A stretch of 64,000 nucleotides of DNA from Plumapathes pennacea (taxonomy: Eukaryota > Cnidaria > Anthozoa > Antipatharia > Myriopathidae), in assembly GCA_964036295.1 (NCBI GenBank), contig OZ038465.1, positions 9,183,667 to 9,247,666 of the forward strand, written 5' to 3'. Each line of letters opens with the position of its first letter. Within the stretch, counting starts at the first letter, position 1. Both the position numbers and the translations under genes were made by a program. Below are positions 3,925 to 43,000 of the stretch, piece by piece. A model generated the notes under the pieces. It ran no database searches. It worked only from the letters and a program-made list of their open reading frames with translations, and was not told where the DNA came from.

Positions 3925-4023
3925 TTGAGAAGGACCCCACTTCACGAAGGGGCAAGTGGTGGCCATCTGGAAGTGGTGAACAAATTGTTAGATGCAGGTG
4001 CAGACGTCAAAGTCTCCTATGAG
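3925..4023 (+). CDS. Ankyrin exon 1 of 33
   Basis: First intact 99-nt exon of the array, after gatttcag and before gtacgta. One ankyrin repeat: L-R-R at 1-3, TPLH at 4-7, EGASGG at 8-13 (Gly replaces the usual Ala at 9), the conserved HLEVVNKLLDAGADV core, ending KVSYE. Confidence 0.85.
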
Positions 4024-7000
4024 GTACGTACGAAATGTCATACATAGGAAAGTGTTATTTGCAATGGATGTTGATCGATTTCACGATGTTTGTGTAGATT
4101 TGTGGCTAATTTGTTGAAACGAACGAAAGTGGTGATGCGCGACCACTCAAAGTGGCAGCAGGTCATAATTTCTTGGTATTATTTTTATTGGCAATTCTAC
4201 CTCATTTTGTATGTGCAATTTGGTTTTCAGTTTTTCATTTCTTTAATAAGATTTAGTGCAGTTTCTTTCTGAAGTCATAAACTGCTTTCTTCTCCAGTTA
4301 GACTAGAAATTAGGTACAAATGCGTCGTGTGTTGTTAGTCTGTGGATCCTTTTTCAGGTTGTACATTTAGCGCTATTTTCCCATATATAGTTTCCTTATT
4401 TTGCATTTGGGTATTTTGTCTCAGTTTCTCGCTGATTGGATTTACCCTTATAGAGTTAATTTGGACCAGGATTTGAGCTCTCACAGAAGGGACTTATGTA
4501 CTTACCAACTGAGGACATGTAGTTAAAACTAAATCATAGCTAATATTTTGAAAAAAAGAAATCTGAGCTCCCAACTTTCACATACGTTTATAGTGAAGCT
4601 GTTCCTGTACCCGTCATCTATTCGGGGAATGCCGCATTTACCCGTGCATAAGTGCACTTTAGTAAAGATAAGTGCATAACCCAAGAATAAGCATAAGAAA
4701 TAAGAAAGTTGTTTATGTTGGAGAGCAATGTTTACCTTTAAGTGTGAAATATGGAAATGTTTTTGTGGGAACTTTGGTTTTTCACTGGTTGGGAAATGTG
4801 ATGTTTATATTCCGCGTAACTGCATATTTGCATTTGGACCTTACCGTTATTGTCGATTTGGTTGGGTTGGCAGGCAGGGAGAAGGGGGAAGGGGATGGTC
4901 GTTTGGAGGATTTGGATATGAAAAGAAGCTGTGGTAGCGGCTGCCCTTAAATTAGCTGTTACCCCCACTGGACACCGTCATTTCACTTAACCCCCTACAT
5001 TAATACTTTAGAGTAGTTACGAACAAAGGGCCGTGAGTTGTTAATCTATGGTTCCGATTTCAGTGGAGAGGGACCCCACTTCACGAAGCGGCAAGAGATG
5101 GCCATCTGGAAGTGGTGAACAAATTGTTAGATGCAGGTGCAGACGTCACCGACATGGATAGGGTACGTAAGAAATGTCATACATACGAAAATGTTATTTG
5201 CAATGGATGTTGATCGATTTCACGGTGTTTTTGTGGATTTGTGATTAATTTGTTGAAACGAACGAAAGTGGTGATGCGCGACCACTCAATGTGGCAGCAG
5301 GTCATAATTTCTTGGTATTATTTTTATTGGCAATTCTACCTCATTTTGTATGTGTAATTTGATTTTGAGTTTTTTCATTTCTTTAATAAGATTTAGTGCA
5401 CTTTCTTTCTGAAGTCATAAGCTGCTTTCTTCTCCAGTTAGAGTAGAAATTAGGTACAAATGCGTCGTGCGTTGTTAGTCTGTGGATCCGTTTTCAGGTT
5501 GTACATTTAGCGCTATTTTCCCATATATAGTTTCCTTATTTTGCATTTGGGTATTTTGTCTCAGTTTCTCGCTGATTGGATTTACCCTTATAGAGTTAAT
5601 TTGGACCAGGATTTGAGCTCTCGCAGAAGCGACTTATGTACTTACCAACTGAGGACATGTAGTTAAAACTAAATCATAGCTAATATTTTGAAAAAAAAAT
5701 CTGAGCTCCCAACTTTCACATACGTTTATAGTGAAGCTGTTCCTGTACCCGTCATCTATTCGGGGAATGCCGCATTTACCCGTGTATAAGTGCACTTTAG
5801 TAAAGATAAGTGCATAACCTAAGAATAAGCATAAGAAATAAGAAAGTTGTTTATGTTGGAGAGCAATGTTTACCTTTAAGTGTGAAATATGGAAATGTTT
5901 TTGTGGGTACTTTTGTTTTTCACTGGTTGGGAAATGTGATGTTTATATTTCGCGTAACTGCATATTTGCATTTGGACCTTACCGTTATTGTCGATTTGGT
6001 TGGATTGGCAGGCAGGGAGAAGGGGGAAGGGGATGGTCGTTTGGAGGATTTGGATATGAAAAGAAGCTGTAGTAGCGGCTGCCCTTAAATTAGCTGTTAC
6101 CCCCACTGGACACCGTCATTTCACTTAACCCACTACATTAATACTTTACAGTAGTTACGAACAAAGGGCCGTGAGTTGTTAATCTATGGTTCCGATTTCA
6201 GTGGAGAAGGACCCCACTTCACGAAGCGGCAAGATGTGGCCATCTGAAAGTGGTGAACAAATTGTTAGATGCAGGTGCAGACGTCAACGTCATGGATAGG
6301 GTACGTAAGAAATGTCATACATACGAAAATGTTATTTGCAATGGATGTTGATCGATTTCACGGTGTTTGTGTGGATTTGTGGCTAATTTTTTGAAACGAA
6401 CGAAAGTGGTGATGCGCGACCACTCAATGTGGCAGCAGGCCATAATCTCTTGGTATTATTTTTATTGGTAATTTTACCTCATTATGTATCTGTAATTTGG
6501 TTTTGAGTTTTTTCATTTGTTGAAAAAAATTTAGTGCACTTTCTTTCTGAAGTCATAAGCTGCTTTCTTCTCCAGTTAGACTATGAATTAGGTACAAATG
6601 CGTCTTGTGTTGTTAGTCTGTGGATCCGTTTTCAGGTTGTACATTTAGCGCTATTTTCCCGTATACAGTTTCCTTATTTTGCATTTGGGTATTTTGTCTC
6701 AGTTTCCCGCTGATTCGATTTACCCTTATATAGTTAGTTTGTACCGGGATTTGAGCTCTCGCAGAAGCGACTTATGTACTTACCAACTGAGGACATGCAG
6801 TTAAAACTAAATCATAGCTAATGTTTTGAAAAAAAGAAATCTAAGCTCCTAACTTTCACATAATTTTATAGTGAAGCTGTTCCTGTACCCGTCATCTATT
6901 CGAATGGCCCATTTACACGTGTACAAATGCACTTTAGTAAAGATAAGTGCATAACCTAAGAATAAGCATATGAAATAAGAAAGTTGTTTATGTTGGAGAG

Positions 7001-10000
7001 CAATGTTTACCTTTAAGTGTGAAATATGGAAATGTATTTGTGGGAACTTTGGTTTTTCACTGGTTGGGAAATGTGATGTTTATATTCCGTGTAACTGCAT
7101 CTTTGCATTTGGACCTGACCGTTATTGTCGATTTGGTTGGGTTGGGAGGCAGGGAGAAGTGTGGAGGGGATGGTCGTGTGGATGATTTGGATATGAAAAG
7201 AAGCTGTGGTAGCGGCTGCCCTTAATTTAGCTGTTACCCCTACTGGACACCGTCATTTCATGTAACCCACTACATTAATACTTTAGAGTAGTTAGAAACA
7301 AAGGGCCGTGAGTTGTTAATCTGTTTTGTTTTCAGTTCAGCGGGACCCCACTTCACTTAGCGGCAAATGGTGGCCATCTGGAAGTGGTGAACAAATTGTT
7401 AGGATCAGGTGCAGACGTGAACGTCACTAATACGGTACGTAAGATATGTCATACATAATAAAAAGGTATTTCCAAAGAATGTTGATCGCTTTCACGGTGT
7501 TTGTGTGGATTTCTGGCTAATTCGTTGAAACGAACGAAACTGGTGATGCGCGACCACTCAATGTGGCAGCCGGTCATAATTTCTTGGTATTAATTTTATT
7601 GGCAATTCTACCTCATTTTGTGTCTGCAATTTGATTTTGAGTTTTTTCATTTGTTGAATAAGGTTTAGTGCAGTTTCTTTCTGAAGTCATAAGCTGCTTT
7701 TTTCTCCAGTTAGACTATAAATTAGGTACAAATGCGTCGTTTGTTGTTAGTCTGTGGGTCCGTTTTCAGGTTGTATATTTAGCGCTATTTTCCCATATAT
7801 AGGTTCCTCATTTTGCATTTGGGGACTTTGTCTCAGTTTGTCGCTGATTGGATTTAGCCTTCTATAGTTAGTTTGGACCGTGATTTGAGCTCTTGCAGAA
7901 GCGACTTATGTGCTTACCAACTGAGGACATGCAGTTAAAACTAAATCATAGCTAATATTTTGAAAAAAAGAAATCTAAGCTCCTAACTTTCACATACGTT
8001 TATAGTGAAGCTGTTCCTGTACCCATCATCTATTCGGGGAATGCCGCATTTACACGTGTATAAGTGCATAACCTAAGAATAAGCATATGAAATAAGAAAG
8101 TTGTTTATGTTGGAGAGCAATGTTTACCTTTAAGTGTGAAATATGGAAATGTATTTGTGTGAACTTTGGTTTTTCACTGGTTGGGAAATGTGATGTTTAT
8201 ATTCCGTGTAACTGCATCTTCGCATTTGGACCTTACCGTTATTGTCGATTTGGTTGGGTTGGGAGGCAGGGAGAAGGGGGAAGGGGATGGTCGTTTGGAG
8301 GATTTGGATATGAAAAGAAGTTGTGGTAGTGGCTGCCCTTAAATTAGCTGTTACCCCCACTGGACACCGTCATTTCACTTAACCCACTACATTAATGCTT
8401 TACAGTAGTTACGAACAAAGGGCCGTGAGTTGCTAATCTATGGTTCCGATTTCAGTTGAGAAGGACCCCACTTCACGAAGCGGCAAGTGGTGGCCATCTG
8501 GAAGTGGTGAACAAATTGTTAGATGCAGGTGCAGACGTCAAAGTCTCCTATGAGGTATGTACGAAATTTCATACATAGGAAAGTGTTATTTGCAATGGAT
8601 GTTGATCGATTTCACGATGTTTGTGTAGATTTGTGGCTAATGTGTTGAAACGAACGAAAGTGGTGATGCGCGACCACTCAAAGTGGCAGCAGGTCATAAT
8701 TTCTTGGTATTATTTTTATTGGCAATTCTACCTCATTTTGTATGTGCAATTTGGTTTTCAGTTTTTCATTTCTTTAATAAGATTTAGTGCAGTTTCTTTC
8801 TGAAGTCATAAACTGCTTTCTTCTCCAGTTAGACTAGAAATTAGGTACAAATGCGTCGTGCGTTGTTAGTCTGTGGATCCGTTTTCAGGTTGTACATTTA
8901 GCGTTATTTTCCCATATATAGTTTCCTTATTTTGCATTTGGGTATTTTGTCTCAGTTTCTCGCTGATTGGATTTACCCTTATAGAGTTAATTTGGACCAG
9001 GATTTGAGCTCTCACAGAAGGGACTTATGTACTTACCAACTGAGGACATGTAGTTAAAACTAAATCATAGCTAATATTTTGAAAAAAAAATCTGAGCTCC
9101 CAACTTTCACATACGTTTATAGTGAAGCTGTTCCTGTACCCGTCATCTATTCGGGGAATGCCGCATTTACCCGTGTATAAGTGCACTTTAGTAAAGATAA
9201 GTGCATAACCTAAGAATAAGCATAAGAAATAAGAAAGTTGTTTATGTTGGAGAGCAATGTTTACCTTTAAGTGTGAAATATGGGAAATGTTTTTGTGGGA
9301 ACTTTGGTTTATCACTGGTTGGGAAATGTGATGTTTATATTCCGTGTAACTGCATATTTGCATTTGGACCTTACCGTTATTGTCGATTTGGTTGGGTTGG
9401 GAGGCAGGGAGAAGGGGGAAGGGGATGGTCGTTTGGAGGATTTGAATATGAAAAGAAGTTGTGGTAGTGGCTGCCCTTAAATTAGCTGTTACCCCCACTG
9501 GACACCGTCATTTCACTTAACTCACTACATTAATGCTTTACAGTAGTTACGAACAAAGGGCCGTGAGTTGTTAATCTATGGTTCCGATTTCAGTGGAGAG
9601 GGACCCCACTTCACGAAGCGGCAAGTGGTGGCCATCTGGAAGTGGTGAACAAATTGTTAGATGCAGGTGCAGACGTCAAAGTCTCCTATGAGGTACGTAC
9701 GAAATGTCATACATAGGAAAGTGTTATTTGCAATGGATGTTGATCGATTTCACGGTGTTTGTGTGGATTTGTGGCTAATTTGTTGAAACGAACGAAAGTG
9801 GTGATGCGCGACCACTCAATGTGGCAGCAGGTCATAATTTCTTGGTATTATTTTTATTGGCAATTCTATCTCATTTTGTATCTGCAATTAGGTTTTGAGT
9901 TTTTTCATTTATTGAATAAGATTTAGTGCACTTTCTTTCTGAAGTCATAAGCTGCTTTCTTCTCCAGTTAGAGTACAAATTAGGTACAAATGCGTCGTGT

Positions 10001-13000
10001 GTTGTTAGTCTATGGGTCCCTTTTGAGGTTGTACATTTAGCGTTATTTTCCCATCTAAAGTTTCCTTATTTTCCATTTGGGTATTTTGTCTCAGTTTCTC
10101 GCTGATTGGATTTACCCTTATAGAGTTAATTTGGACCAGGATTTGAGCTCTCGCAGAAGCAACTTATGTACTTACCAACTGAGGACATGTAGTTAAAACT
10201 AAATCATAGCTAATATTTTGAAAAAAAGAAATCTGAGCTCCCAACTTTCACATACGTTTATAGTGAAGCTGTTCCTGTACCCGTCATCTATTCGGGGAAT
10301 GCCGCATTTACCCGTGTATAAGTGCACTTTAGTAAAGATAAGTGCATAACCTAAGAATAAGCATAAGAAATAAGAAAGTTGTTTATGTTGGAGAGCAATG
10401 TTTACCTTTAAGTGTGAAATATGGAAATGTTTTTGTGGGAACTTTGGTTTTTCACTGGTTGGGAAATGTGATGTTTATATTCCGCGTAACTGCATATTTG
10501 CATTTGGACCTTACCGTTATTGTCGATTTGGTTGGGTTGGGAGGCAGGGAGAAGGGGGGAGGGGATGGTCGTTTGGAGGATTTGGATATGAAAAGAAGCT
10601 GTGGTAGCGGCTGCCCTTAAATTAGCTGTTACCCCCACTGGACACCGTCATTTCACTTAACCCACTACATTAATACTTTAGAGTAGTTACGAACAAAGGG
10701 CCGTGAGTTGTTAATCTATGGTTCCGATTTCAGTGGAGAGGGACCCCACTTCACGAAGCGGCAAGAGGTGGCCATCTGGAAGTGGTGAACAAATTGTTAG
10801 ATGCAGGTGCAGACGTCAACGTCATGGATAGGGTACGTAAGAAATGTTATACATACGAAAATGTTATTTCAATGGATGTTGATCGATTTCACGGTGTTTG
10901 TGTGGATTTGTGATTAATTCGTTGAAAGGAACGAAAGTGGTGATGCGCGACCACTTAATGTGGCAGCAGGTCATAATTTCTTGGTGTTATTTTTTATTTT
11001 TTTTTGAATTCTACCTCATTTTGTATCTATAATTTGATTTTGAGTTTTTTCATTTGTTTAATAAGATTTAGTACACTTTCTTTCTAAAGTCATAAGCTGC
11101 TTTCTTCTCCAGTTAGACTAGAAATTAGGTACAAATGCGTCGTGTGTTGTTAGTCTGTGGATCCGTTTTCAGGTTGTACATTTAGCGCTATTTTCCCATA
11201 TATAGTTTCCTTATTTTGCGTTTGGGTATTTTGTCTCAGTTTCTCGCTGATTGGATTTACCCTTATAGAGTTAATTTAGACCAGGATTTGAGCTCTCGCA
11301 GAAGCGACTTATGTACTTACCAACTGAGGACATGTAGTTAAAACTAAATCATAGCTAATATTTTGAAAAAAAGAAATCTGAGCTCCCAACTTTCACATAC
11401 GTTTATAGTGAAGCTGTTCCTGTACCCGTCATCTATTCGGGGAATGCCGCATTTGCCCGTGTATAAGTGCACTTTAGTAAAGATAAGTGCATAACCTAAG
11501 AATAAGCATAGAGCCGTTTTCGGATGAGTGTCGAAAACCAAAACCAAAGTAATCACACAGGCCAATCACAGAGACTGAGAGAAAACAGTTCAGCCAATTG
11601 GAAGCCAAAGTAATTTGCGTTTGGTCTTGCGTTTGGTTTTACTTTCCAATCAGCAGTGCGAGTACACGCCATCGCTTGCGTGAGAAGTGTTTGGTTTTGG
11701 TTTTGGTTTTGTTCCTGATTGGCTAAGCATGCTGACAAACTAGTGTGGACCAATCCGAAAGCGAAGCAAACGCAAAACCAAAGCAATCACACAATTACTT
11801 TCGGCAGTCATCCGAAAACCGCTCTAAGAAATAAGAAAGTTGTTTATGTTGGAGAGCAATGTTTACCTTGAAGTGTGAAATATGGAAATGTTTTTGTGGG
11901 AACTTTGGTTTTTCACTGGTTGGGAAATGTGATGTTTATATTCCGGGTAACTGCATATTTGCATTTGGACCTGACCGTTATTGTCGATTTGGTTGGGTTG
12001 GGAGGCAGGGAGAAGGGGGAAGGGGATGGTGGTTTGGAGGATTTGGATATGAAAAGAAGCTGTTGTAGCGGCTGCCCTTAAATTAGCTGTTACCCCCACT
12101 GGACACCGTCATTTCACTTAACCCACTACATTAATACTTTAGAGTAGTTACGAACAAAGGGCCGTGAGTTGTTAATCTATGGTTCCGATTTCAGTCGAGA
12201 GGGACCCCACTTCACGAAGCGACAAGAGGTGGCCATCTGGAAGTGGTGAACAAATTGTTAGATGCAGGTGCAGACCTCAAAGTCATGGATAGTGTACGTA
12301 AGAAATATCATACATACGAAAATGTTATTTGCAATGGATGTTGATCGATTTCACGGTGTTTGTGTGGATTTGTGATTAATTTGTTGAAACGAACGAAAGT
12401 GGTGATGTGCAACCACTCAATATAGCAGCAGGTCATAATTTCTTGGTATTATTTTTATTGGCAATTCTACCTCATTTTGTATGTGTAATTTGATTTTGAG
12501 TTTTTTCATTTCTTTAGTAAGATTTAGTGCACTTTCTTTCTGAAGTCATAAGCTGCTTTCTTCTCCAGTTAGAGTAGAAATTAGGTACAAATGCGTCGTG
12601 TGTTGTTAGTCTGTGGGTCCGTTTTCAGGTTGTACATTTAGCGCTAATTTCCCATATATAGTTTCCTTATTTTGCATTTGGGTATTTTGTCTCAGTTTCT
12701 CGCTGATTGGATTTACCCTTATAGAGTTAATTTGGACCAGGATTTGAGCTCTCGCAGAAGCGGCTTATGTACTTACCAACTGAGGACATGTAGTTAAAAC
12801 TAAATCATAGCTAATATTTTGAAAAAAGAAATCTGAGCTCCCAACTTTCACATACGTTTATAGTGAAGCTGTTTCTGTACCCGTCACCTATTCGGCGAAT
12901 GCCGCATTTACCCGTGTATAAGTGCACTTTAGTAAAGATAAGTGCATATTAACCTAAGAATAAGCATAAGAAATAAGATAGTTGTTTATGTTGGAGAGCA

Positions 13001-16000
13001 ATGTTTACCTTAAAGTGTGAAATATGGAAATGTTTTTGTGGGAACTTTGGTTTTTCACTGGTTGGGAAATGTGATGTTTATATTCCGTGTAACTGCATAT
13101 TTGCATTTGGACCTTACCGTTATTGTCGATTTGGTTCGGTTGGGAGGCAGGGAGAAGGGGGGAGGGGGTGGTCGTTTGGAGGATTTGGATATGAAAAGAA
13201 GCTGTTGTAGCGGCTGCCCTTAAATTAGCTGTTACCCCCACTGGACACCGTCATTTCATGTAACCCACTACATTAATACTTTACAGTAGTTATAAACAAA
13301 GGGCCGTGAGTTGTTAATCTATGGTACCGATTTCAGTGGAGAAGGACCCCACTTCACGAAGCGGCAAGATGTGGCCATCTGGAAGTGGTGAACAAATTGT
13401 TAGATGCAGGTGCAGACGTCAAAGTCTCCTATGAGGTACGTACGAAATGTCATACATAGGAAAGTGTTATTTGCAATGGATGTTGATCGATTTCACAGTG
13501 TTTGTGTGGATTTGTGGCTAATGTTTTGAAACGAACGAAAGTGGTGATGCGCGACCACTCAAAGTGGCAGCAGGTCATAATTTCTTGGTTTTATTTTTAT
13601 TGGCAATTCTACCTCATTTTGTATCTGTAATTTAGTTTTGAGTTTTTTCATTTATTGAATAAGATTTAGTACACTTTCTTTCTGAAGTCATAAGCTGCTT
13701 TCTTCTCCAGTTAGACTATAAATTAGGTACAAATGCGTCGTGTGTTGTTAGTCTGTGGGTCCGTTTTCAGGTTGTACATTTAGTGCTAATTTCCCATATA
13801 TAGTTTCCTTATTTTGCATTTGGGTATTTTGTCTCAGTTTTTCGCTGATTGGATTTACCCTTATAGAGTTAATTTGGATCAGGATTTGAGCTCTCGCAGA
13901 AGCGACTTATGTACTTACCAACTGAGGACATGTAGTTAAAACTAAATCATAGCTAATATTTTGAAAAAAAGAAATCTGAGCTCCCAACTTACACATACGT
14001 TTATAGTGAAGCTGTTGCTGTACCCGTCATCTATTCGGGGAATGCCGCATTTACCCGTGTATAAGTGCACTTTAGTAAAGATAAGTGCATAACCTAAGAT
14101 TAAAAATAAGAAATATGATAGTTGTTTATGTTGGAGAGCAATGTTTACCTTAAAGTGTGAAATATGGAAATGTTTTTGTAGGAACTTTGGTTTTTCACTG
14201 GTTGGGAAATGTGATGTTTATATTCCGTGTAACTGCATATTTGCATTTGGACCTTACCGTTATTGTCGATTTGGTTGGGTTGGGAGGCAGGGAGAAGGGG
14301 AGAGGGGATGGTCGTTTGGAGGATTTGGATATGAAAAGAAGTTGTGGTAGCGGCTGCCCTTAACTTAGCTGTTACCCCCACTGGACACCGTCATTTCACT
14401 TAACCCACTACATTAATACTTTACAGTAGTTACGAACAAAGGGCCGTGATTTGTTAACCTATGGTTCCGTTTTCAGTTGAGAGGGAGCCCACTTCACGAA
14501 GCGGCAAGTGGTGGCCATCTGGAAGTGGTGAACAAATTGTTAGATGCAGGTGCAGACGTCAACGTCATGCATAGGGTACGTAAGAAATGTCATACATACG
14601 AAAATGTTATTTGCAATGGATGTTGATCGATTTCACGGTGTTTGTGTGGATTTGTGGCTAATTTGTTGAAACGAACGAAAGTGGTAATGCGCGACCACTC
14701 AATGTGGCAGCAGGCCATAATCTCTTGGTATTATTTTTATTGGTAATTCTACCTCATTTTGTATCTGTAATTTGGTTTTGAGTTCTTTCATTTGTTGAAA
14801 AAAATTTAGTGCACTTTCTTTCTGAAGTCATAAGCTGCTTTCTTCTCCAGTTAGACTATGAATTAGGTACAAATGCGTCTTGTGTTGTTAGTCTTTGGAT
14901 CCGTTTTCAGGTTGTACATTTAGCGCTATTTTCCCATATACAGTTTCCTTATTTTGCATTTGTGTATTTTGTCTCAGTTTCCCGCTGATTCGATTTACCC
15001 TTATATAGTTAGTTTGTACCGGGATTTGAGCTCTCGCAGAAGGGACTTATGTACTTACCAACTGAGGACATGCAGTTAAAACTAAATCATAGCTAATATT
15101 TTGAAAAAAAGAAATCTAAGCTCCTAACTTTCACATACTTTTATAGTGAAGCTGTTCCTGTACCCGTCATCTATTCGAATGGCCCATTTACACGTGTACA
15201 AATGCACTTTAGTAAAGATAAGTGCATAACCTAAGAATAAGCATATGAAATAAGAAAGTTGTTTATGTTGGAGAGCAATGTTTACCTTTAAGTGTGAAAT
15301 ATGGAAATGTATTTGTGGGAACTTTGGTTTTTCACTGGTTGGGAAATGTGATGTTTATATTCCGTGTAACTGCATCTTTGCATTTGGACCTGACCGTTAT
15401 TGTCGATTTGGTTGGGTTGGGAGGCAGGGAGAAGTGTGGAGGGGATGGTCGTGTGGATGATTTGGATATGAAAAGAAGCTGTGGTAGCGGCTGCCCTAAA
15501 TTTAGCTGTTACCCCTACTGGACACCGTCATTTCATGTAACCCACTACATTAATACTTTAGAGTAGTTAGAAACAAAGGGCCGTGAGTTGTTAATCTGTT
15601 TTGTTTTCAGTTCAGCGGGACCCCACTTCACTCAGCGGCAAATGGTGGCCATCTGGAAGTGGTGAACAAATTGTTAGATGCAGGTGCAGACGTGAACGTC
15701 ACTAATACGGTACGTAAGATATGTCATACATAATAAAAAGGTATTTCCAAAGAATGTTGATCGCTTTCACGGTGTTTGTGTGGATTTCTGGCTAATTCGT
15801 TGAAACGAACGAAACTGGTGATGCGCGACCACTCAATGTGGCAGCCGGTCATAATTTCTTGGTATTAATTTTATTGGCAATTCTACCTCATTTTGTGTCT
15901 GCAATTTGATTTTGAGTTTTTTCATTTGTTGAATAAGGTTTAGTGCAGTTTCTTTCTGAAGTCATAAGCTGCTTTTTTCTCCAGTTAGACTATAAATTAG

Positions 16001-28000: not shown

Positions 28001-31000
28001 TCTATTCGGGGAATGCCGCATATACCATTGTATAAGTGCACTTTAGTAAAGATAAGTGCAGAACCTAAGAATAAGCATATGAAATAAGATAGTTGTTTAT
28101 GTTGGAGAGCAATTTTTACCTTTAAGTGCGAAATATGGAAATGTTTTTGTGGGAACTTTGGTTTTCCTCTGGTTGGGAAATGTGATGTTTATATTCCGTG
28201 CAACTGTATATTTGCATTTGGACCTGACCGTTATTGTCGATTTGGTTGGGCTGGGAGGCAGGGAGAAGTGTGGAGGGGATGGTCGTTTGGATGATTTGGA
28301 TATGAAAAGAAGCTGTGGTAGCGGCTGCCCTCAAATTAGCTGTTACCCCCACTGGACACCGTCATTTCTCGTAAGCCACTACATTAATACTTTAGGGTAG
28401 ATAGAAACAAAGGGCCGTGAGTTATTAATCTGTGGTTCCGTTTTCAGAATATACGGACCCTGCTTCAGGTAGCGGCAAGTCGTGGCCATCTGGAAGTGGT
28501 GAACAAATTGTTAGATGCAGGTGTAGACGTTAACGTCAGAGATGAAGTACGTAAGACATGTCATATATAGGAAAAAGTTATTTGCAATGGATATTGATCG
28601 ATTTCAGGGTGTTTGTGTGGATTTCTGACTAATTCGTTGAAACGAACGAAACTGGTGATGCGCGACCGCTCAATGTGCAGCCGGTCATAATTTCTTGGTA
28701 TCAGTTTTATTGGCAATTCTACCTCAATTTGTGTCTGCAATTTGGTTTTGAGTTTTTTCATTTGTTGAATAAGATTTAGTGCACTTTCTTTGTGAAGCCA
28801 TAAGCTGCTTTCTTCTCCAGTTAGACTATAAATTAGGTACAAATGCGTCGTGTGTTGTTAGTCTGTGGGTCCGTTTTCAGGTTGTACATTTAGTGCTATT
28901 TTCCCATATATAGTTTCCTTATTTTCCATTTGAGGATTTTGTCTCAGTTTCACGCTGATTGGATTTAACCTTAAATAGTTACTTTGGACCCGGATTTGAG
29001 CTCTCGCAGAAGCAACTTATGTACTTACTAACTTAGGACATACAGTTAAAACTAAATCACAGCTAATATTTTGAAAAAAAAGAAATCTGAGCTACCAACT
29101 TTCACATACTTTTATAGTGAACCTGTCCCTGTACCCGTCATCTATTCGGGGAATGCCGCATATACCATTGTATAAGTGCACTTTAGTAAAGATAAGTGCA
29201 TAACCTAAGAATAAGCATATGAAATAAGATAGTTGTTTATGTTGGAGAGCAATTTTTACCTTTAAGTGCGAAATATGGAAATGTTTTTGTGGGAACTTTG
29301 GTTTTCCACTGGTTGGGAAATGTGATGTTTATATTCCGTGCAACTGTATATTTGCATTTGGACCTGACCGTTATTGTCGATTTGGTTGGGTTGGGAGGCA
29401 GGGAGAAGTGTGGAGGGGATGGTCGTTTGGATGATTTGGATATGAAAAGAAGCTGTGGTAGCGGCTGCCCTCAAATTAGCTGTTACCCCCACTGGACACC
29501 GTCATTTCTCGTAAGCCACTACATTAATACTTTAGGGTAGTTAGAAACAAAGGGCCGTGAGTTATTAATCTGTGGTTCCGTTTTCAGAATATACGGACCC
29601 TGCTTCAGGTAGCGGCAAGTCGTGGCCATCTGGAAGTGGTGAACAAATTGTTAGATGCAGGTGTAGACGTTAACGTCAGAGATGAAGTACGTAAGACATG
29701 TCATATATAGGAAAAAGTTATTTGCAATGGATATTGATCGATTTCAGGGTGTTTGTGTGGATTTCTGACTAATTCGTTGAAACGAACGAAACTGGTGATG
29801 CGCGACCACTCAATGTGCAGCCGGTCATAATTTCTTGGTATTAGTTTTATTGGCAATTCTACCTCAATTTGTGTCTGCAATTTGGTTTTGAGTTTTTTCA
29901 TTTGTTGAATAAGATTTAGTGCACTTTCTTTGTGAAGCCATAAGCTGCTTTCTTCTCCAGTTAGACTATAAATTAGGTACAAATGCGTCGTGTGTTGTTA
30001 GTCTGTGGGTCCGTTTTCAGGTTGTACATTTAGTGCTATTTTCCCATATATAGTTTCCTTATTTTTGTCTCAGTTTCACGCTGATTGGATTTAACCTTAA
30101 ATAGTTACTTTGGACCCGGATTTGAGCTCTCGCAGAAGCGACTTATGTACTTACTAACTTAGGACATACAGTTAAAACTAAATCACAGCTAATATTTTGA
30201 AAAAAAGAAATCTGAGCTACCAACTTTCACATACTTTTATAGTGAACCTGTCCCTGTACCCGTCATCTATTCGGGGAATGCCGCATATACCATTGTATAA
30301 GTGCACTTTAGTAAAGATAAGTGCATAACCTAAGAATAAGCATATGAAATAAGATAGTTGTTTATGTTGGAGAGCAATTTTTACCTTTAAGTGCGAAATA
30401 TGGAAATGTTTTTGTGGGAACTTTGGTTTTCCACTGGTTGGGAAATGTGATGTTTATATTCCGTGCAACTGTATATTTGCATTTGGACCTCACCGTTATT
30501 GTCGATTTGGTTGGGTTGGGAGGCAGGGAGAAGTGTGGAGGGGATGGTCGTTTGGATGATTTGAATATGAAAAGAAGCTGTGGTAGCGGCTGCCCTTAAA
30601 TTAGCTGTTACCCCCACTGGACACCGTCATTTCTCGTAAGCCACTACATTAATAGTTTAGAGTAGTCAGAAACAAAGGGCCGTGAGTTATTAATCTGTGG
30701 TTTCGTTTTCAGAATATACGGACCCTGCTTCAGATAGCGGCAAGTCGTGGCCATCTGGAAGTGGTGAACAAATTGTTAGATGCAGGTGTAGACGTTAACG
30801 TCAGAGATGAAGTACGTAAGATATGTCAAATATAGGAAAAAGTTATTTGCAATGGATATTGATCGATTTCAGGGTGTTTGTGTGGATTTCTGGCTAATTC
30901 GTTGAAACGAACGAAACTAGTGATGTGCGACCACTCAATGTGGCAGCCGGTCATAATTTCTTGGTATTAGTTTTATTGGCAATTCTATCTCAATTTGTAT

Positions 31001-34000
31001 CTCCAATTTGGTTTTGAGTTTTTTCATTTGTTGAATAAGATTTAGTGCACTTTCTTTGTGAAGCCATAAGCTGCTTTCTTCTCCAGTTAGACTATAAATT
31101 AGGTACAAATGCGTCGTGTGTTGTTAGTCTGTGGGTCCGTTTTCAGGTTGTACATTTAGCGCTATTTTCCTATATATAGGTTCCTCATTTTGCATTTGGG
31201 GAATTTGTCTCAGTTTCTCGCTGATTGGATTTAGCCTTCTATAGTTAGTTTGGACCGTGATTTGAGCTCTTGCAGAAGCGACTTATGTGCTTACCAACTG
31301 AGGACATGCAGTTAAAACTAAATCATAGCTAATATTTTGAAAAAAAGAAATCTGAGCTCCTAACTTTGACATATAGTGAAGCTGTTCCAGTACCCGTCAT
31401 CTATTCGGGGAATGCTGCATTTACACGTGTATAAATGCACTTTAGTAAAGATAAGTGCATAACCTAAGAATAAGCATATGAAATAAGATAGTTGTTTATG
31501 TTGGAGAGCAATTTTTACCTTTAAGTGCGAAATATGGAAATGTTTTTGTGGGAACTTTGGTTTTCCACTGGTTGGGAAATGTGATGTTTATATTCCGTGC
31601 AACTGTACATTTGCATTTGGACCTGACCGTTATTGTCGATTTGGTTGGGTTGGGAGGCAAGGAGAAGTATGGAGGGGATGGTCGTGTGGATGATTTGGAT
31701 ATGAAAAGAACCTGTGGTAGCGGCTGCCCTTAATTTAGCTGTTACCCCTACTGGACACCGTCATTTCATGTAACCCACTACATTAATACTTTAGGGTAGT
31801 TAGAAACAAAGGGCCGTGAGTTGTTAATCTGTGGTTTTGTTTCAGTTCAGAGGGACCCCACTTCACTCAGCGGCAAATGGTGGCCATCTGGAAGTGGTGA
31901 ACAAATTGTTAGATGCAGGTGCAGACGTGAACGTCACTAATACGGTACGTAAGATATGTCATGCATAGGAAAAAGGTATTTCCAAAGAATGTTGATCGCT
32001 TTCACGGTGTTTGTGTGGATTTCTGGCTAATTCGTTGAAACGAACGAGACTGGTGATGCGCGACCACTCAATGTGGCAGCCGGTCATAATTTCTTGGTAT
32101 TAGTTTTATTGGCAATTCTACCTCAGTTTGTATCTGCAATTTGATTTTGAGTTTTCTCATTTGTTGAATAAGATTTAGTGCACTTTCTTTGTGAATCCAT
32201 AAGCTGCTTTCTTCTCCAGTTACAATATAAATTAGATACAAATGCGTCGTTTATTGTTAGTCTGTGGGTCCGTTTTCAGGTTGTACATTTAGCGCTATTT
32301 TCCCATATATAGTTTCCTTATTTTCCATTTGAGGATTTTGTCTGAGTTTCACGCTGATTGGATTTACCCTTACATAGTTAGTTTGGACCGGGATTTGAGC
32401 TCTCGCAGAAGCGACTTATGTACTTATCAACTGAGGACATACAGCTAAAACTGAATCATAGCTAATATTTTGAAAGAAAGAAATCTGAGCTACCAACTTT
32501 CACATACTTTTATAGTGAAGCTGTTCCTGTACCCGTCATCTATTCGGGGAATGCCGCATATACCCGTTTATAAGTGCACTTTAGTAAAGATAAGTGCATA
32601 ACCTAAAAATAAGCATATGAAATAAGATAGTTGTTTATGTTGGAGAGCAATGTTTCCCTTTAATTGTGAAATATGGAAATGTTTTTGTGGGTATTTTAGT
32701 TTTCCACTGGTTGGGAAATGTGATGTTTATATTCCGTGCAACTGTATATTTGCATTTGGACCTGACCGTTATTGTCGATTTGGTTGGGTTGGGAGGCAGG
32801 GAGAAGTGTAGAGGGGGATGGTCGTTTGGATGATTTGGATATGAAAAGAAGCTGTGGTAGCGACTGCCCTTAAATTAGCTGTTACCCCCACAGGACACCG
32901 TCATTTCTCGTAAGCCACTACATTAATACTTTAGGGTAGTTAGAAACAAAGGCCCGTGAGTTATTAATCTGTGGTTCCGTTTTCAGAATATACGGACCCT
33001 GCTTCAGGTAGCGGCAAGTCGTGGCCATCTGGAAGTGGTGAACAAATTGTTAGATGCAGGTGTAGACGTTAACGTCAGAGATGAAGTACGTAAGACATGT
33101 TATATATAGGAAAAAGTTATTTGCAATGGATATTGATCGATTTCAGGGTGTTTGTGTGGATTTCTGACTAATTCGTTGAAACGAACGAAACTGGTGATGC
33201 GCGACCGCTCAATGTGCAGCCGGTCATAATTTCTTGGTATTAGTTTTATTGGCAATTCTACCTCAATTTGTGTCTGCAATTTGGTTTTGAGTTTTTTCAT
33301 TTGTTGAATAAGATTTAGTGCACTTTCTTTGTGAAGCCATAAGCTGCTTTCTTCTCCAGTTAGACTATAAATTAGGTACAAATGCGTCGTGTGTTGTTAG
33401 TCTGTGGGTCCGTTTTCAGGTTGTACATTTAGTGCTATTTTCCCATATATAGTTTCCTTATTTTCAATTTGAGGATTTTGTCTCAGTTTCACGCTGATTG
33501 GATTTAACCTTAAATAGTTACTTTGGACCCGGATTTGAGCTCTCGCAGAAGCAACTTATGTACTTACTAACTTAGGACATACAGTTAAAACTAAATCACA
33601 GCTAATATTTTGAAAAAAAAGAAATCTGAGCTACCAACTTTCACATACTTTTATAGTGAACCTGTCCCTGTACCCGTCATCTATTCGGGGAATGCCGCAT
33701 ATACCATTGTATAAGTGCACTTTAGTAAAGATAAGTGCATAACCTAAGAATAAGCATATGAAATAAGATAGTTGTTTATGTTGGAGAGCAATTTTTACCT
33801 TTAAGTGCGAAATATGGAAATGTTTTTGTGGGAACTTTGGTTTTCCACTGGTTGGGAAATGTGATGTTTATATTCCGTGCAACTGTATATTTGCATTTGG
33901 ACCTGACCGTTATTGTCGATTTGGTTGGGCTGGGAGGCAGGGAGAAGTGTGGAGGGGATGGTCGTTTGGATGATTTGGATATGAAAAGAAGCTGTGGTAG

Positions 34001-37000
34001 CGGCTGCCCTCAAATTAGCTGTTACCCCCACTGGACACCGTCATTTCTCGTAAGCCACTACATTAATACTTTAGGGTAGTTAGAAACAAAGGGCCGTGAG
34101 TTATTAATCTGTGGTTCCGTTTTCAGAATATACGGACCCTGCTTCAGGTAGCGGCAAGTCGTGGCCATCTGGAAGTGGTGAACAAATTGTTAGATGCAGG
34201 TGTAGACGTTAACGTCAGAGATGAAGTACGTAAGACATGTCATATATAGGAAAAAGTTATTTGCAATGGATATTGATCGATTTCAGGGTGTTTGTGTGGA
34301 TTTCTGACTAATTCGTTGAAACGAACGAAACTGGTGATGCGCGACCGCTCAATGTGCAGCCGGTCATAATTTCTTGGTATTAGTTTTATTGGCAATTCTA
34401 CCTCAATTTGTGTCTGCAATTTGGTTTTGAGTTTTTTCATTTGTTGAATAAGATTTAGTGCACTTTCTTTGTGAAGCCATAAGCTGCTTTCTTCTCCAGT
34501 TAGACTATAAATTAGGTACAAATGCGTCGTGTGTTGTTAGTCTGTGGGTCCGTTTTCAGGTTGTACATTTAGTGCTATTTTCCCATATATAGTTTCCTTA
34601 TTTTCAATTTGAGGATTTTGTCTCAGTTTCACGCTGATTGGATTTAACCTTAAATAGTTACTTTGGACCCGGATTTGAGCTCTCGCAGAAGCAACTTATG
34701 TACTTACTAACTTAGGACATACAGTTAAAACTAAATCACAGCTAATATTTTGAAAAAAAAAGAAATCTGAGCTACCAACTTTCACATACTTTTATAGTGA
34801 ACCTGTCCCTGTACCCGTCATCTATTCGGGGAATGCCGCATATACCATTGTATAAGTGCACTTTAGTAAAGATAAGTGCATAACCTAAGAATAAGCATAT
34901 GAAATAAGATAGTTGTTTATGTTGGAGAGCAATTTTTACCTTTAAGTGCGAAATATGGAAATGTTTTTGTGGGAACTTTGGTTTTCCACTGGTTGGGAAA
35001 TGTGATGTTTATATTCCGTGCAACTGTATATTTGCATTTGGACCTGACCGTTATTGTCGATTTGGTTGGGCTGGGAGGCAGGGAGAAGTGTGGAGGGGAT
35101 GGTCGTTTGGATGATTTGGATATGAAAAGAAGCTGTGGTAGCGGCTGCCCTCAAATTAGCTGTTACCCCCACTGGACACCGTCATTTCTCGTAAGCCACT
35201 ACATTAATACTTTAGGGTAGTTAGAAACAAAGGGCCGTGAGTTATTAATCTGTGGTTCCGTTTTCAGAATATACGGACCCTGCTTCAGGTAGCGGCAAGT
35301 CGTGGCCATCTGGAAGTGGTGAACAAATTGTTAGATGCAGGTGTAGACGTTAACGTCAGAGATGAAGTACGTAAGACATGTCATATATAGGAAAAAGTTA
35401 TTTGCAATGGATATTGATCGATTTCAGGGTGTTTGTGTGGATTTCTGACTAATTCGTTGAAACGAACGAAACTGGTGATGCGCGACCACTCAATGTGCAG
35501 CCGGTCATAATTTCTTGGTATTAGTTTTATTGGCAATTCTACCTCAATTTGTGTCTGCAATTTGGTTTTGAGTTTTTTCATTTGTTGAATAAGATTTAGT
35601 GCACTTTCTTTGTGAAGCCATAAGCTGCTTTCTTCTCCAGTTAGACTATAAATTAGGTACAAATGCGTCGTGTGTTGTTAGTCTGTGGGTCCGTTTTCAG
35701 GTTGTACATTTAGTGCTATTTTCCCATATATAGTTTCCTTATTTTTGTCTCAGTTTCACGCTGATTGGATTTAACCTTAAATAGTTACTTTGGACCCGGA
35801 TTTGAGCTCTCGCAGAAGCGACTTATGTACTTACTAACTTAGGACATACAGTTAAAACTAAATCACAGCTAATATTTTGAAAAAAAGAAATCTGAGCTAC
35901 CAACTTTCACATACTTTTATAGTGAACCTGTCCCTGTACCCGTCATCTATTCGGGGAATGCCGCATATACCATTGTATAAGTGCACTTTAGTAAAGATAA
36001 GTGCAGAACCTAAGAATAAGCATATGAAATAAGATAGTTGTTTATGTTGGAGTGCAATTTTTACCTTTAAGTGCGAAATATGGAAATGTTTTTGTGGGAA
36101 CTTTGGTTTTCCACTGGTTGGGAAATGTGATGTTTATATCCCGTGCAACTGTATATTTGCATTTGGACCTGACCGTTATTGTCGATTTGGTTGGGTTGGG
36201 AGGCAGGGAGAAGTGTGGAGGGGATGGTCGTTTGGATGATTTGGATATGAAAAGAAGCTGTGGTAGCGGCTGCCCTCAAATTAGCTGTTACCCCCACTGG
36301 ACACCGTCATTTCTCGTAAGCCACTACATTAATACTTTAGGGTAGTTAGAAACAAAGGGCCGTGAGTTATTAATCTGTGGTTCCGTTTTCAGAATATACG
36401 GACCCTGCTTCAGATAGCGGCAAGTCGTGGCCATCTGGAAGTGGTGAACAAATTGTTAGATGCAGGTGTAGACGTTAACGTCAGAGATGAAGTACGTAAG
36501 ACATGTCATATATAGGAAAAAGTTATTTGCAATGGATATTGATCGATTTCAGGGTGTTTGTGTGGATTTCTGACTAATTCGTTGAAACGAACGAAACTGG
36601 TGAGGCGCGACCACTCAATGTGCAGCCGGTCATAATTTCTTGGTATTAGTTTTATTGGCAATTCTACCTCAATTTGTGTCTGCAATTTGGTTTTGAGTTT
36701 TTTCATTTGTTGAATAAGATTTAGTGCACTTTCTTTGTGAAGCCATAAGCTGCTTTCTTCTCCAGTTAGACTATAAATTAGGTACAAATGCGTCGTGTGT
36801 TGTTAGTCTGTGGGTCCGTTTTCAGGTTGTACATTTAGTGCTATTTTCCCATATATAGTTTCCTTATTTTTGTCTCAGTTTCACGCTGATTGGATTTAAC
36901 CTTAAATAGTTACTTTGGACCCGGATTTGAGCTCTCGCAGAAGCGACTTATGTACTTACTAACTTAGGACATACAGTTAAAACTAAATCACAGCTAATAT

Positions 37001-40000
37001 TTTGAAAAAAAGAAATCTGAGCTACCAACTTTCACATACTTTTATAGTGAACCTGTCCCTGTACCCGTCATCTATTCGGGGAATGCCGCATATACCATTG
37101 TATAAGTGCACTTTAGTAAAGATAAGTGCATAACCTAAGAATAAGCATATGAAATAAGATAGTTGTTTATGTTGGAGTGCAATTTTTACCTTTAAGTGCG
37201 AAATATGGAAATGTTTTTGTGGGAACTTTGGTTTTCCACTGGTTGGGAAATGTGATGTTTATATCCCGTGCAACTGTATATTTGCATTTGGACCTGACCG
37301 TTATTGTCGATTTGGTTGGGCTGGGAGGCAGGGAGAAGTGTGGAGGGGATGGTCGTTTGGATGATTTGGATATGAAAAGAAGCTGTGGTAGCGGCTGCCC
37401 TCAAATTAGCTGTTACCCCCACTGGACACCGTCATTTCTCGTAAGCCACTACATTAATACTTTAGGGTAGTTAGAAACAAAGGGCCGTGAGTTATTAATC
37501 TGTGGTTCCGTTTTCAGAATATACGGACCCCACTTTACCTAGCTGCAAGTGGTGGCCATCTAGAAGTGGTGAACAAATTGTTAGATGCAGGTGCTGACCT
37601 CAACGTCATGGATAGAGTACGTAACATATCATATATAGGAAAAAGTTATTTGCAATGGATATTGATCGATTTCAGGGTGTTTGTGTGAATTTCTGGCTAA
37701 TTCGTTGAAACGAACGAAACTGGTGATGCGCGACCACTCAATGTGGCAGCCGGTCATAATTTCTTGGTATTAGTTTTATTGGCAATTCTACCTCAATTTG
37801 TGTCTGCAATTTGGTTTTGAGTTTTTTCATTTGTTGAATAAGATTTAGTGCACTTTCTTTGTGAAGCCATAAGCTGCTTTCTTCTCCAGTTAGACTATAA
37901 ATTAGGTACAAATGCGTCGTGTGTTGTTAGTCTGTGGGTCCGTTTTCAGGTTGTACATTTAGTGCTATTTTCCCATATATAGTTTCCTTATTTTTGTCTC
38001 AGTTTCACGCTGATTGGATTTAACCTTAAATAGTTACTTTGGACCCGGATTTGAGCTCTCGCAGAAGCGACTTATGTACTTACTAACTTAGGACATACAG
38101 TTAAAACTAAATCACAGCTAATATTTTGAAAAAAAGAAATCTGAGCTACCAACTTTCACATACTTTTATAGTGAACCTGTCCCTGTACCCGTCATCTATT
38201 CGGGGAATGCCGCATATACCATTGTATAAGTGCACTTTAGTAAAGATAAGTGCATAACCTAAGAATAAGCATATGAAATAAGATAGTTGTTTATGTTGGA
38301 GAGCAATTTTTACCTTTAAGTGCGAAATATGGAAATGTTTTTGTGGGAACTTTGGTTTTCCACTGGTTGGGAAATGTGATGTTTATATTCCGTGCAACTG
38401 TATATTTGCATTTGGACCTGACCGTTATTGTCGATTTGGTTGGGTTGGGAGGCAGGGAGAAGTGTGGAGGGGATGGTCGTTTGGATGATTTGGATATGAA
38501 AAGAAGCTGTGGTAGCGGCTGCCCTCAAATTAGCTGTTACCCCCACTGGACACCGTCATTTCTCGTAAGCCACTACATTAATACTTTAGGGTAGTTAGAA
38601 ACAAAGGGCCGTGAGTTATTAATCTGTGGTTCCGTTTTCAGAATATACGGACCCCACTTTACCTAGCTGCAAGTGGTGGCCATCTAGAAGTGGTGAACAA
38701 ATTGTTAGATGCAGGTGCTGACCTCAACGTCATGGATAGAGTACGTAACATATCATATATAGGAAAAAGTTATTTGCAATGGATATTGATCGATTTCAGG
38801 GTGTTTGTGTGAATTTCTGGCTAATTCGTTGAAACGAACGAAACTGGTGATGCGCGACCACTCAATGTGGCAGCCGGTCATAATTTCTTGGTATTTGTTT
38901 TATTGGCAATTCTACCTCAATTTGTATCTGCAATTTGGTTTTGAGTTTTTTCATTTGTTGAATAGGATTTAGTGCACTTTCTTTCTGAAGTCATAAACTG
39001 CTTTCTTCTCCAGTTAGACTATAAATTAGGTACAAATGCGTCGTGTGTTGTTAGTCTGTGGGTCCGTTTTCAGGTTGTACATTTAGTGCTATTTTCCCAT
39101 ATATAGTTTCCTTATTTTCAATTTGAGGATTTTGTCTCAGTTTCACGCTTATTGGATTTACCCTTACATAGTTAGTTTGGACCGGGATTTGAGCTCTCGC
39201 AGAAGCGACTTATGTACTTACCAACTGAGGACATACAGTTAAAACTAAATCACAGCTAATATTTTGAAAAAAGAAATCTGAGCTACCAACTTTCACATAC
39301 TTTTATAGTGAAGCTGTTCCTGTACCCGTCATCTATTCGGGGAATGCCGTATATACCCGTTTATAAGTGTACTTTAGTAAAGATAAGTGCATAACCTAAG
39401 AATAAGCATATGAAATAAGAAAGTTGTTTATGTTGGAGAGCATTATGTTTACCTTTAAGTGCGAAATATGGAAATGTATTTGTGGGAACTTTGGTTTTCC
39501 ACTGGTTGGGAAATGTGATGTTTATATTCCGTGTAACTGCATATTTGCATTTGTACCTTACCGTTATTGTCGATTAATACTACATTAATACTTTAGAGTA
39601 GTTAGATACAAAGGGCCGTGAGTTGTTAATCTGTGGTTCCGTTTTCAGGATAAGCGAACCCCACTTCACCTAGCTGCAACTGGTGGCCATCTGGAAGTGG
39701 CAAACAAATTGTTACATGCGGGTGCAGACGTTAACTTCAGAGATGAGGTACGTAAGATATGTCATATATAGGAAAAAGTTATTTGCAATGGATGTTGATT
39801 GATTTCAGGGTGTTTGTGTGGATTTCTGGCTAATTCGTTGAAACGAACGAAACTGGTGATGCTCGACCACTCAATCTGGCAGCCGGTCATAATTTCTTGG
39901 TATTATTTTTATTGGCAATTCTACCTCATTTTGTATCTGCAATTTGGTTTTGAGTTTTTTCATTTGTTGAATAAGATTTAGTGCACTTTCTTTCTGAAGT

Positions 40001-43000
40001 CATAAACTGCTTTCTTCTCCAGTTAGACTATAAATTAGGTACAAATGCGTCGTGTGTTGTTAGTCTGTGGGTCCGTTTTCAGGTTGTATATTTAGCGCTA
40101 TTTTCCCATATATAGTTTCCTTATTTTCCATTTGGGGATTTTGTCTCAGTTTCTCGCTGATTGGATTTACCCTTAAATAGTTAGTTTGGACCGGGATTTG
40201 AGCTCTCGCAGAAGCGACTTATGTACTTACCAACTGAGGACATGCAGTTAAAACTAAATCATAGCTAATATTTTGAAAAAATGAAATCTGAGCTACCAAC
40301 TTTCACATACTTTTATATTGAAGCTGTCCCTGTACCCGTCATCTATTCGGGGAATGCCGCATATACATCTGTAGTTATAGTATGTATTCCATATATGGAT
40401 CAACCGGACGAGCAATTACCTGGCTCTGATGAGCAAATACATTGCCCCAACGAGCAAATACGCAACCTTGAATAATAATTAGCCGTAACTTTGCAACTGG
40501 ATAAACAGTGTTTGGATTATAGTTTAGACTTAGATTTAAGGTTGGGGTTAGGGTTAGGGTTAGAGTTAGGTTTAGGGTTAGGTTTAGGGTTAGGTTTAGG
40601 GTTATGGTCAGGGTTGGGCCGTAACCTAAGAATAAGCATAAGAAATAAGAAAGTTGTTTATGTTGGAGAGCAATGTTTACCTTAAAGTGTGAAATATGGA
40701 AATGTTTTTGTGGGAACTTTGGTTTTTCACTGGTTGGGAAATGTGATGTTTATATTCCGTGTAACTCCATATTTGCATTTGAACTCCATATTTGCGAAAC
40801 TAGTCACCAGGTCCCCCGGTCAGCCCACTTTCAGGACGCAGTTGCGTTCACACCTAAAGCGGACTAGTTTGGATCGATCTCGATAGACCTTAGACCACCT
40901 CCTAATACGAGCTGAGTTGGATCGATCTGAGATCGCTTATAGGAAACATCGATCGTTCACACCTGGCCCGTATACGCCTGGATCGATCTGAGATCGCTTT
41001 AACTGCCTAGTGTGAACGGGCCCTTATACTGGTGACGTCGCTATACAACCATGGTTTGTGTAAACCATTAATAATCTCCAAGCGGAAAATAGACCAGAAT
41101 CCCGCTTTCCGAGAACCCACTACAGGGCGAGGGGATGTCTGCGATTATTAAAAACTGGACCACGGATTCTAGGCTTTTGATTGGTTCCTTGGACATGGGT
41201 TATCAGCTCATATCCAATGGGTGAACAAATATGGTCAATGAACGCGTGAGCGACGAAGTAATGTGGAGAAAGTTTTTTCAGATTTCACAACCTGTTCAGA
41301 GTGGCTTGCAAGTCCCGGGTGAGACAAATTTACAAAAGTAATTAAAGAATGAGCAAAGAGGAAAAAATGCATGTCTCAGGCTTTTTTACACAACAGCAAA
41401 GGGAACAAGACGGCACCTTCGCTCAAGTCGATACGAGCAGCCATTGATCGATCGCTCCGGTTCGCCTCCGCAATGTAAACAGTTCCATCATCACCGACTC
41501 TGCTTTCACAGAAGCAAATATAGTTTTCTTCAATATTCCTTGCTGATGTTCAAGCATCTCCAGTTTCAGTTCTCGTTCAGCAATGCCAGTTGTCAGTTTC
41601 AAGCAGCATCACAAACGTCGCACATGGCGAGCAAAGAAAGCGATTCCCTCCGATGCGATATTTACAACTGTACCAACGTCCAAGTTTTCAATAATTTTGG
41701 TATATCACCTTTAAGATGTTTTTGTAAACTCCTTCTGAGGGTGTTTGTTCACTCGATTTCATTCATTCAGCTATCAGCCCGTTCGCAAAGACGTCATAGT
41801 TGCGGTAATTATGTGATCATTGTATTTTTGGAGCGGAAGTACTAGAGTCGTCCGGTCTTTTTTGCGTCAAATAAAATCATTTTGAAGAGTATTTTGTGGT
41901 CCAGTTTTTAATAAAAACAATTATTCTACTCGGGCTTGCCGAATATAGACTGATAAATAACCAACTCGGCGCGGCGCCTCGTTGGTATTTATCAATCCAT
42001 AGTCGGCGCGCCCTTGTAGGATAATTGTTAATTATTGTGTTTCTAGTATCTTTAATTTGGTTTTGATATAAAATTTAGCGCACTCTCGTTGTTTGTGTGG
42101 ATTTTTGGCTAATTCGTCGAAACAAATGAAACTGGCGAAGGCGGCTACTCACTGGGGCAGGTCACACATTTGTTGGTGATTTTGTTTATTTACAGCTTAA
42201 CCTTGTTTTGTATCTTTACGGTCATTGGTTATGCACTTTTTTGTTTAAGAAGAAAGCGCACCCTGTTCATTTCCCAAGTTATAAGCCGCTTCCCTCTCCA
42301 GTTAAACTAGAAATTAGTGCTTTAGAGTAGTTAGAAACAAATGTTTTGTGAGTTGTTAATCTATGGTAATATTCTGTTTTCAGTTTCAAAAGAACCCACT
42401 TCACCTGGCCGTCGAGAGTGGCCATCTCGAGGTGGTGAAGAAGGTGTTAGGTGCAGGAGCAGCCGTCAAGGTTACGGATTCGGTATGTAAAATATGCATG
42501 CATAGAACAGATGACTCTGTAGTGGTGTTGCAGTGGTGTTCATCGAATTCTCGTTGGCTAATTAATTCAATTCAAATCAAATTTTTTGTTTTGTTTTTTC
42601 CTCTGCCTGAAAGGTTCCACATATGAATAACGTTTTGATCGTGAGAAGTGCGAAAGACTGTGAAGAATTGCTGGCCCGTTTTCGGCAACAGTCTACCTTG
42701 GGACCCTTACCAGAGGTACCCTACAGTCTTTATATTCTAGGCCGTACGTCCGATGAGGTTATTAACATTCTAAGGGCATTACCACAAGATAAGAATCTCG
42801 AAGGACTTTTTGTCACAAATGTAATAGGAGAATTGTCATTGGATAAAGTATTTCATTGGAAATACCCAAGCATCACCAAGCTTACTTTTATTAACTGTGG
42901 TCTTCAGATACTACCAAAAGACATTGACAAACATTTTCCAAATGTCGAAGAACTTGTGTTGACAAATAACGACCTGAGAATAATTCCCGATAGTGTTGGT

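Follow-up and report, generated by a model that had tools for sequence, protein, structure and literature searches.

A tandem array of single-repeat ankyrin exons in a predicted Roco-type gene of Plumapathes pennacea

The ankyrin exon array

The window analyzed here is a 64,000 nucleotide (nt) stretch of the genome of Plumapathes pennacea (Cnidaria; Anthozoa; Antipatharia), taken from GenBank assembly GCA_964036295.1, contig OZ038465.1, positions 9,183,667 to 9,247,666 of the forward strand. It carries a tandem array of short ankyrin exons followed by exons for leucine-rich repeat (LRR), Roc, COR, Death and trypsin-like domains. The locus is best read as encoding a predicted fast-evolving, modular binding domain. 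The array and the sequence just upstream of it consist of the following, with positions counted from the start of the window.

2660..3924, + strand: upstream remnant unit with array-intron sequence on both sides and no recognisable ankyrin exon (blastn, alignment)
3925..39747, + strand: tandem ankyrin exons of units 1-32, each 99 nt and phase 0 (profile and splice signals)
42384..42482, + strand: 33rd, diverged ankyrin exon (profile; Pfam Ank, 4.1e-5, on the open frame containing exon 33)

A profile made from the first three exons and run over the whole window (E up to 1) gives exactly 33 matches, all on the + strand, and the array spans positions 3925-42482. Each exon encodes one 33-residue ankyrin repeat with the core TPLHxAAxxGHxxVVxxLLxxGADVN. 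As the original prediction had it, all 33 exons are 99 nt in length, open and in phase 0; the exon ends were placed at the AG nearest the profile start and the GT nearest 99 nt, a choice biased toward 99 nt. TTTCAG directly precedes every exon, and GTACGT follows 30 of them and GTATGT three. There are 24 distinct DNA sequences and 21 distinct protein sequences among the 33 exons. Five of the 33 repeats were compared with known proteins; repeats 2-5 align without gaps to a designed ankyrin repeat protein (DARPin; 6mol), and ankyrin-1 is likewise matched, with a gap in one alignment shown. Ankyrin exons of 99 nt and phase 0 are not unusual as such. What is unusual here is how many exons there are, how homogeneous they are and how they contrast with the introns.

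A unit is defined as an exon with its following intron. The tandem units of about 1.14 kb that had been described are found over most of the array: from exon 1 to exon 32, 28 of 31 spacings measure 1120-1142 nt, two 1461 nt and one 1007 nt. Exon 33, the diverged one, begins 2735 nt beyond the start of exon 32. The two long units, unit 7 (10734-12194) and unit 13 (17868-19328), each 1461 nt, have a common intron insert of approximately 316 columns and are therefore copies of one another.

The absence of stop codons and frameshifts, which had been thought telling, is true of the 33 exons. Thirty-three open, in-frame exons exceed chance, because just three of 758 intron windows of 99 columns, and these three overlapping, likewise stay open and in frame across the 31 aligned units. 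However, intactness of the exons is weak evidence of selection because under neutral change at the intron rate the 31 exons would be free of stops with P = 0.23 and free of indels with P of about 0.18. In addition, the upstream remnant unit appears to have lost its exon. The last array intron matches positions 2660-2707, 2970-3719 and 3855-3924 of this remnant (blastn), and alignment of the remnant (about 2660-3924) with unit 6 gives no similar exon between the intron-like stretches.

Most introns display a second acceptor-like site, TTTTCAG followed by GTTGTA, similar to the acceptor of the exon proper. Its exact sequence has 25 occurrences, at positions 4351, 5491, 6629 and at 22 further sites up to 40076. 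Recursive splicing or a second exon was considered for this site and rejected; one frame downstream, read by eye, hits a stop codon. The site is probably a relic of an older duplication.

The array could also serve as an alternative-splicing cassette, where the cell picks subsets of the 33 exons as is described for the LRR exons of brown-algal ROCO genes (PMC11378527). Any skip would keep the frame, all 33 exons being frame-neutral. However, the same six bases are present at 30 of 33 donors and at 33 of 33 acceptors and there is no sign of exon choice, and a cassette of this type is very improbable.

The Roco-type gene downstream of the array

Four further exons are predicted beyond the ankyrin array.

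42614..45622, + strand: LRR-Roc-COR exon, 1003 amino acids (aa), GC donor (Pfam; splice signals and frame; predicted ends)
46107..46152, + strand: putative small linker exon (splice signals, continuous frame)
46665..46960, + strand: Death-domain exon with predicted ends (Pfam Death, 9.8e-11, on 46667-46963; frame)
48943..49851, + strand: trypsin-like peptidase exon including the stop codon, with a predicted start (Pfam Trypsin_2; frame)

The LRR-Roc-COR exon is 3009 nt in length, begins 131 nt past the last ankyrin exon and contains all of the LRRs found by Pfam. Pfam analysis of positions 42611-45622 shows LRR_8 (1.8e-12), Roc (5e-11) and COR-A (1.2e-14). Roc, at aa positions 246-364, is followed by COR-A at 489-613 within the one exon, and both are past the Pfam cut-off. 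The trypsin-like exon matches Trypsin_2 (8.2e-15 on 48976-49848) over profile positions 1-144 of 144, and His, Asp and Ser motifs are visible in it by eye. A trypsin-like peptidase behind a Death domain is an unusual tail for a Roco protein. Joining of the predicted 37 exons at plausible splice sites, with GC at one donor, gives 7527 nt and one frame of 2508 aa with a single terminal stop.

A NACHT or NB-ARC core is absent from the Pfam matches of the segments scanned, Roc being present instead. By its domain content the predicted gene is thus a Roco and not an NLR. The domain order of LRRK1 is ANK-LRR-Roc-COR, and the same order is present here; LRRK1 is also the best Roco protein (1.6e-19) among the best 60 of 242 solved sequences. 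Unlike the LRRK1-type Roco kinases, no kinase domain is found C-terminal to COR in the downstream segments scanned with Pfam, which yield Death and Trypsin_2 only. Ten further open frames, out of many in the window, were taken from both sides of the gene and have no Pfam match. A search of the LRR-Roc-COR exon against viral_contigs and genome_contigs, which are viral or prokaryotic collections and give the result little weight, shows no relatives.

The predicted LRR-Roc-COR-Death-trypsin tail fits a receptor-like setting. In bacterial conflict systems, trypsin-like peptidases serve as effectors joined to death-like domains (PMC8195603), and in cnidarians Death domains are found together with NACHT (PMC8260672).

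Turnover of units and divergence of exons

The introns had been called almost identical, and this does not hold for all of them: pairwise differences range from 0.1% to 9.6% with a mean of 6.4%, and homogenisation of the introns is partial. The values are for units 1-31, which were aligned, with units 32 and 33 left out. Small differences link two consecutive blocks of seven units, and three units are mosaics of others.

7336..15610, + strand: block A, units 4-10 (intron differences to block B)
15611..23887, + strand: block B, units 11-17 (unit 12 fusion-like and unit 16 added-like relative to block A)
16731..17867, + strand: unit 12, chimera, 5′ part as unit 5 and 3′ part as unit 6
21611..22750, + strand: unit 16, chimera, 5′ part as unit 17 and 3′ part as unit 15
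37518..38641, + strand: unit 30, chimera, exon and first part of the intron as unit 31, remaining intron as unit 28

Between blocks A and B the introns of units 4 and 11 differ by 0.1%, those of 7 and 13 by 0.4%, 8 and 14 by 0.1%, 9 and 15 by 0.3%, 10 and 17 by 0.3% and 5 and 12 by 1.3%; unit 6 is without a partner of its own. Unit 12 is explained by one breakpoint within intron columns 573-1187 with one error in 38 informative columns. For unit 16 the breakpoint is in intron columns 602-649 with no errors in 88 informative columns, or two errors in 93 when units 10 and 9 are taken as the parents instead. Permutation of the column order did not produce as good a fit in any of 20000 trials for unit 16 (0/20000) or for unit 12 (0/20000). 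The unit 30 breakpoint is in intron columns 229-256 with three errors in 189 informative columns. Seven parent trios, chosen after similarity painting, were tried in all, and four of these (unit 16 twice, unit 12 and unit 30) fit one breakpoint. Unit 18 as a one-breakpoint chimera has 14 errors in 114 columns and was not counted, nor was unit 24, with 20 errors in 113 and 19 in 50, the best breakpoint of the latter overlapping the end of the exon.

Units are, as read from the sequence, gained, lost and exchanged by recombination, because units 12, 16 and 30 are chimeric and have their breakpoints in introns. The original prediction that exons can be added or lost without breaking the frame agrees with this: all 33 are frame-neutral, and the number and order of units do change, as the chimeras and blocks A and B indicate. 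It had further proposed a gene-internal machine for rapid change of a receptor. The turnover and the receptor-like tail speak for that proposal, but nothing points to a dedicated machine, and unequal crossover and gene conversion of the ordinary kind, acting on introns that are alike, would suffice.

Several pairs of units are only 0.1-0.4% apart in the intron, and in an outbred animal two haplotypes may differ by 0.1-0.4%. Inflation of the assembly or mis-joined haplotypes could thus have placed alleles or duplicated reads in tandem, as blocks A and B and as units 22, 23 and 26-29. However, A and B are more than plain copies of each other, since units 12 and 16 are recombinant, and most pairs of units are several per cent apart. 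We regard this explanation as unlikely. If A and B were alleles, they would still display a changed order of units, and a recent change in unit order is thus indicated whether the blocks are paralogues or mis-assembled alleles.

The comparison of exon with intron divergence that had been proposed as a check gives a clear difference. The mean pairwise difference is 0.146 for exons and 0.064 for introns. Calculated by site, diversity is 0.146 in the exon versus 0.063 in the intron, a ratio of 2.3 (bootstrap interval 1.4-3.3), and a ratio of 1 or less was found in one of 5000 replicates. No other 99-column stretch of the unit is as diverse as the exon. For example, units 22 and 30 have introns 0.6% apart, yet their exons differ at 16 of 99 sites. 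Within the exon, the repeat core is constrained: diversity is 0.016 in the core (nt 37-75) and 0.21 and 0.26 in the two ends. Third positions in the core are variable in four of 13 codons, which is near the share of variable intron columns (28%). Intron diversity peaks beside the exon (0.125 downstream and 0.085 upstream) and drops unevenly to about 0.05.

Variable residues and possible function

Variability is highest at exon positions 1, 31, 8, 33, 2, 11, 32, 12 and 3. We take the fully randomised positions of DARPins to be canonical positions 2, 3, 5, 13, 14 and 33, which are exon positions 33, 1, 3, 11, 12 and 31; the list was compared visually with the alignments of array repeats to the DARPin. 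These six positions have a mean diversity of 0.67 versus 0.19 elsewhere. Among all 1107568 sets of six positions, 43 are as diverse when the 33 exons are used and nine when the 21 distinct repeats are used (P of 3.9e-5 and 8e-6). With canonical position 26 included as a seventh, P is 4.9e-4 and 1.4e-4, and with an alternative six (canonical positions 2, 3, 5, 13, 14 and 26, without position 33) it is 0.0043 and 0.0016. Exon positions 2, 8 and 32 are outside the six and are equally variable.

A custom-made codon model (not PAML) was applied to the 23 distinct sequences of exons 1-32, with exon 33 left out. A single class gives a ratio of nonsynonymous to synonymous rates (omega) of 1.63. Comparison of M1a with M2a favours a class of roughly 30% of codons with an omega of 5, the other codons being at 0.63, and twice the difference in log likelihood (2dlnL) is 26.1 and 25.7. 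Null simulations with one recombination breakpoint, rather than denser recombination, did not reach the observed value in any of 40 cases, the maximum being 15.3. The codon model thus favours positive selection on the array exons. The posterior exceeds 0.9 at nine exon positions, 1, 2, 3, 8, 11, 12, 30, 31 and 33, which contain all six DARPin positions of the list assumed above. Positive selection would therefore fall on positions of the binding face, where the face is defined by that assumed numbering.

We lean, with modest confidence, toward the array being the part of an intracellular Roco-type signalling receptor that does the recognising and can be diversified. With one 33-residue repeat to each exon, addition, removal or exchange of exons would leave the frame intact. 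Misaligned recombination between similar introns would give arrays of differing length and order, short exchanges would carry exon variants from unit to unit, and selection would retain variants that alter the binding face. The spliced protein may sense a variable ligand, probably microbial or non-self, by means of its long ankyrin solenoid, and the signal would pass by way of Roc-COR to the Death and trypsin-like domains.

Concerted evolution alone is a doubtful but possible alternative to a recognition role. Here conversion would homogenise the introns, the exons would keep older differences, and places in the solenoid would need differing repeats, with no function in recognition. Seven disjoint pairs of units with an intron difference of less than 0.5% bear on this. 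Their exons differ at nine of 693 sites and their introns at 17 of 7569 (P 1.7e-4), a 5.8-fold higher frequency in the exons of these youngest pairs. Seven of the eight codon changes alter the residue and one is silent. These observations, together with the concentration of whole-array diversity at the six DARPin positions, are contrary to concerted evolution alone.

There are also several points that weigh against a recognition role, some of which are those that concerted evolution would account for. Exon divergence, both synonymous and amino acid, exceeds that of introns (synonymous 0.121, intron 0.064), and the overall ratio of nonsynonymous to synonymous differences (pN/pS) is only 1.27; therefore part of the exon excess is likely to represent old exon lineages kept apart during homogenisation of the introns. 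The peak of intron diversity beside the exon is also as concerted evolution would have it. The seven recent pairs were picked after viewing the difference matrix, and without units 4 and 11 their P is 0.026 (odds ratio 3.5). Only two of the seven recent amino acid changes are on the six DARPin positions (exon positions 1 and 11), or three of seven when canonical position 26 is included; the changes off the six are at exon positions 8 (twice), 23, 24 and 30. Exon position 8 (canonical 10), among the most variable, is as a rule a packing position. Six of the 40 null simulations exceed 5.99, which makes the codon test too liberal at the textbook cut-off. No upstream end of the gene was located. 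Support for a selected binding face comes from the array as a whole more than from its latest changes, and confidence in a recognition receptor is lower because the recent amino acid changes mostly miss the DARPin six.

Brown-algal LRR-ROC-COR genes have one LRR per 72-nt phase-2 exon in a tandem array, with exon shuffling, positively selected positions on the concave face and alternative splicing (PMC11378527). The locus resembles them in the Roco GTPase, in exons of fixed length and phase that each hold one repeat, in an array next to Roc-COR, in positively selected positions and in exchange between units. It differs in that the exon here is an ankyrin exon of 99 nt and phase 0, the LRRs share a single long exon, and Death and trypsin-like domains follow it. 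Fungal NLRs carry highly conserved ANK, TPR or WD repeats with length polymorphism between isolates and selection mostly on the concave face (PMC4986451). Near-identical ankyrin repeats, changing repeat number, concerted evolution and selected positions are common to both; however, the core there is NACHT or NB-ARC and here Roco, and the available part of that paper says nothing of single-repeat exons. In phased coral genomes, haplotype-specific tandem expansion of defence-like genes is reported and non-allelic recombination is proposed (PMC12314368), although this case concerns whole genes and not exons. One-per-exon ankyrin repeats in a Roco gene are not described among the open-access literature matches listed. 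By analogy, the locus may be said to work like the algal and fungal repeat arrays.

How animals without rearranging antigen receptors keep up with changing microbes is an open question. The locus would be an animal counterpart of two systems unrelated to each other, the shuffled LRR exons of brown-algal Roco genes and the homogenised repeats of fungal NLRs, and three lineages would have converged on repeat arrays whose copies exchange sequence and whose binding faces are under selection. The contrast of exon over intron diversity looks like a route to quick new recognition specificities. The array is predicted to differ in length and order between individuals, and the variable positions are predicted to contact ligand. 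A stronger proposal, that this is an innate animal receptor whose diversity is generated at the exon level, where array length and order vary between individuals and perhaps cells by recombination or splicing and create individual repertoires, is speculative and rather unlikely.

The intron following exon 32 contains imperfect TTAGGG repeats (about 13 copies, positions 40522-40615). Beyond these, from approximately 40782 to 42089, some 1.3 kb has no match to the array intron. Strand skew is constant across the array (positions 4001-40000), with a GC skew of 0.13-0.21 and an AT skew of about -0.13. The flanking bins display mostly near-zero skew, with the exception of 52001-54000, where the GC skew is 0.17.

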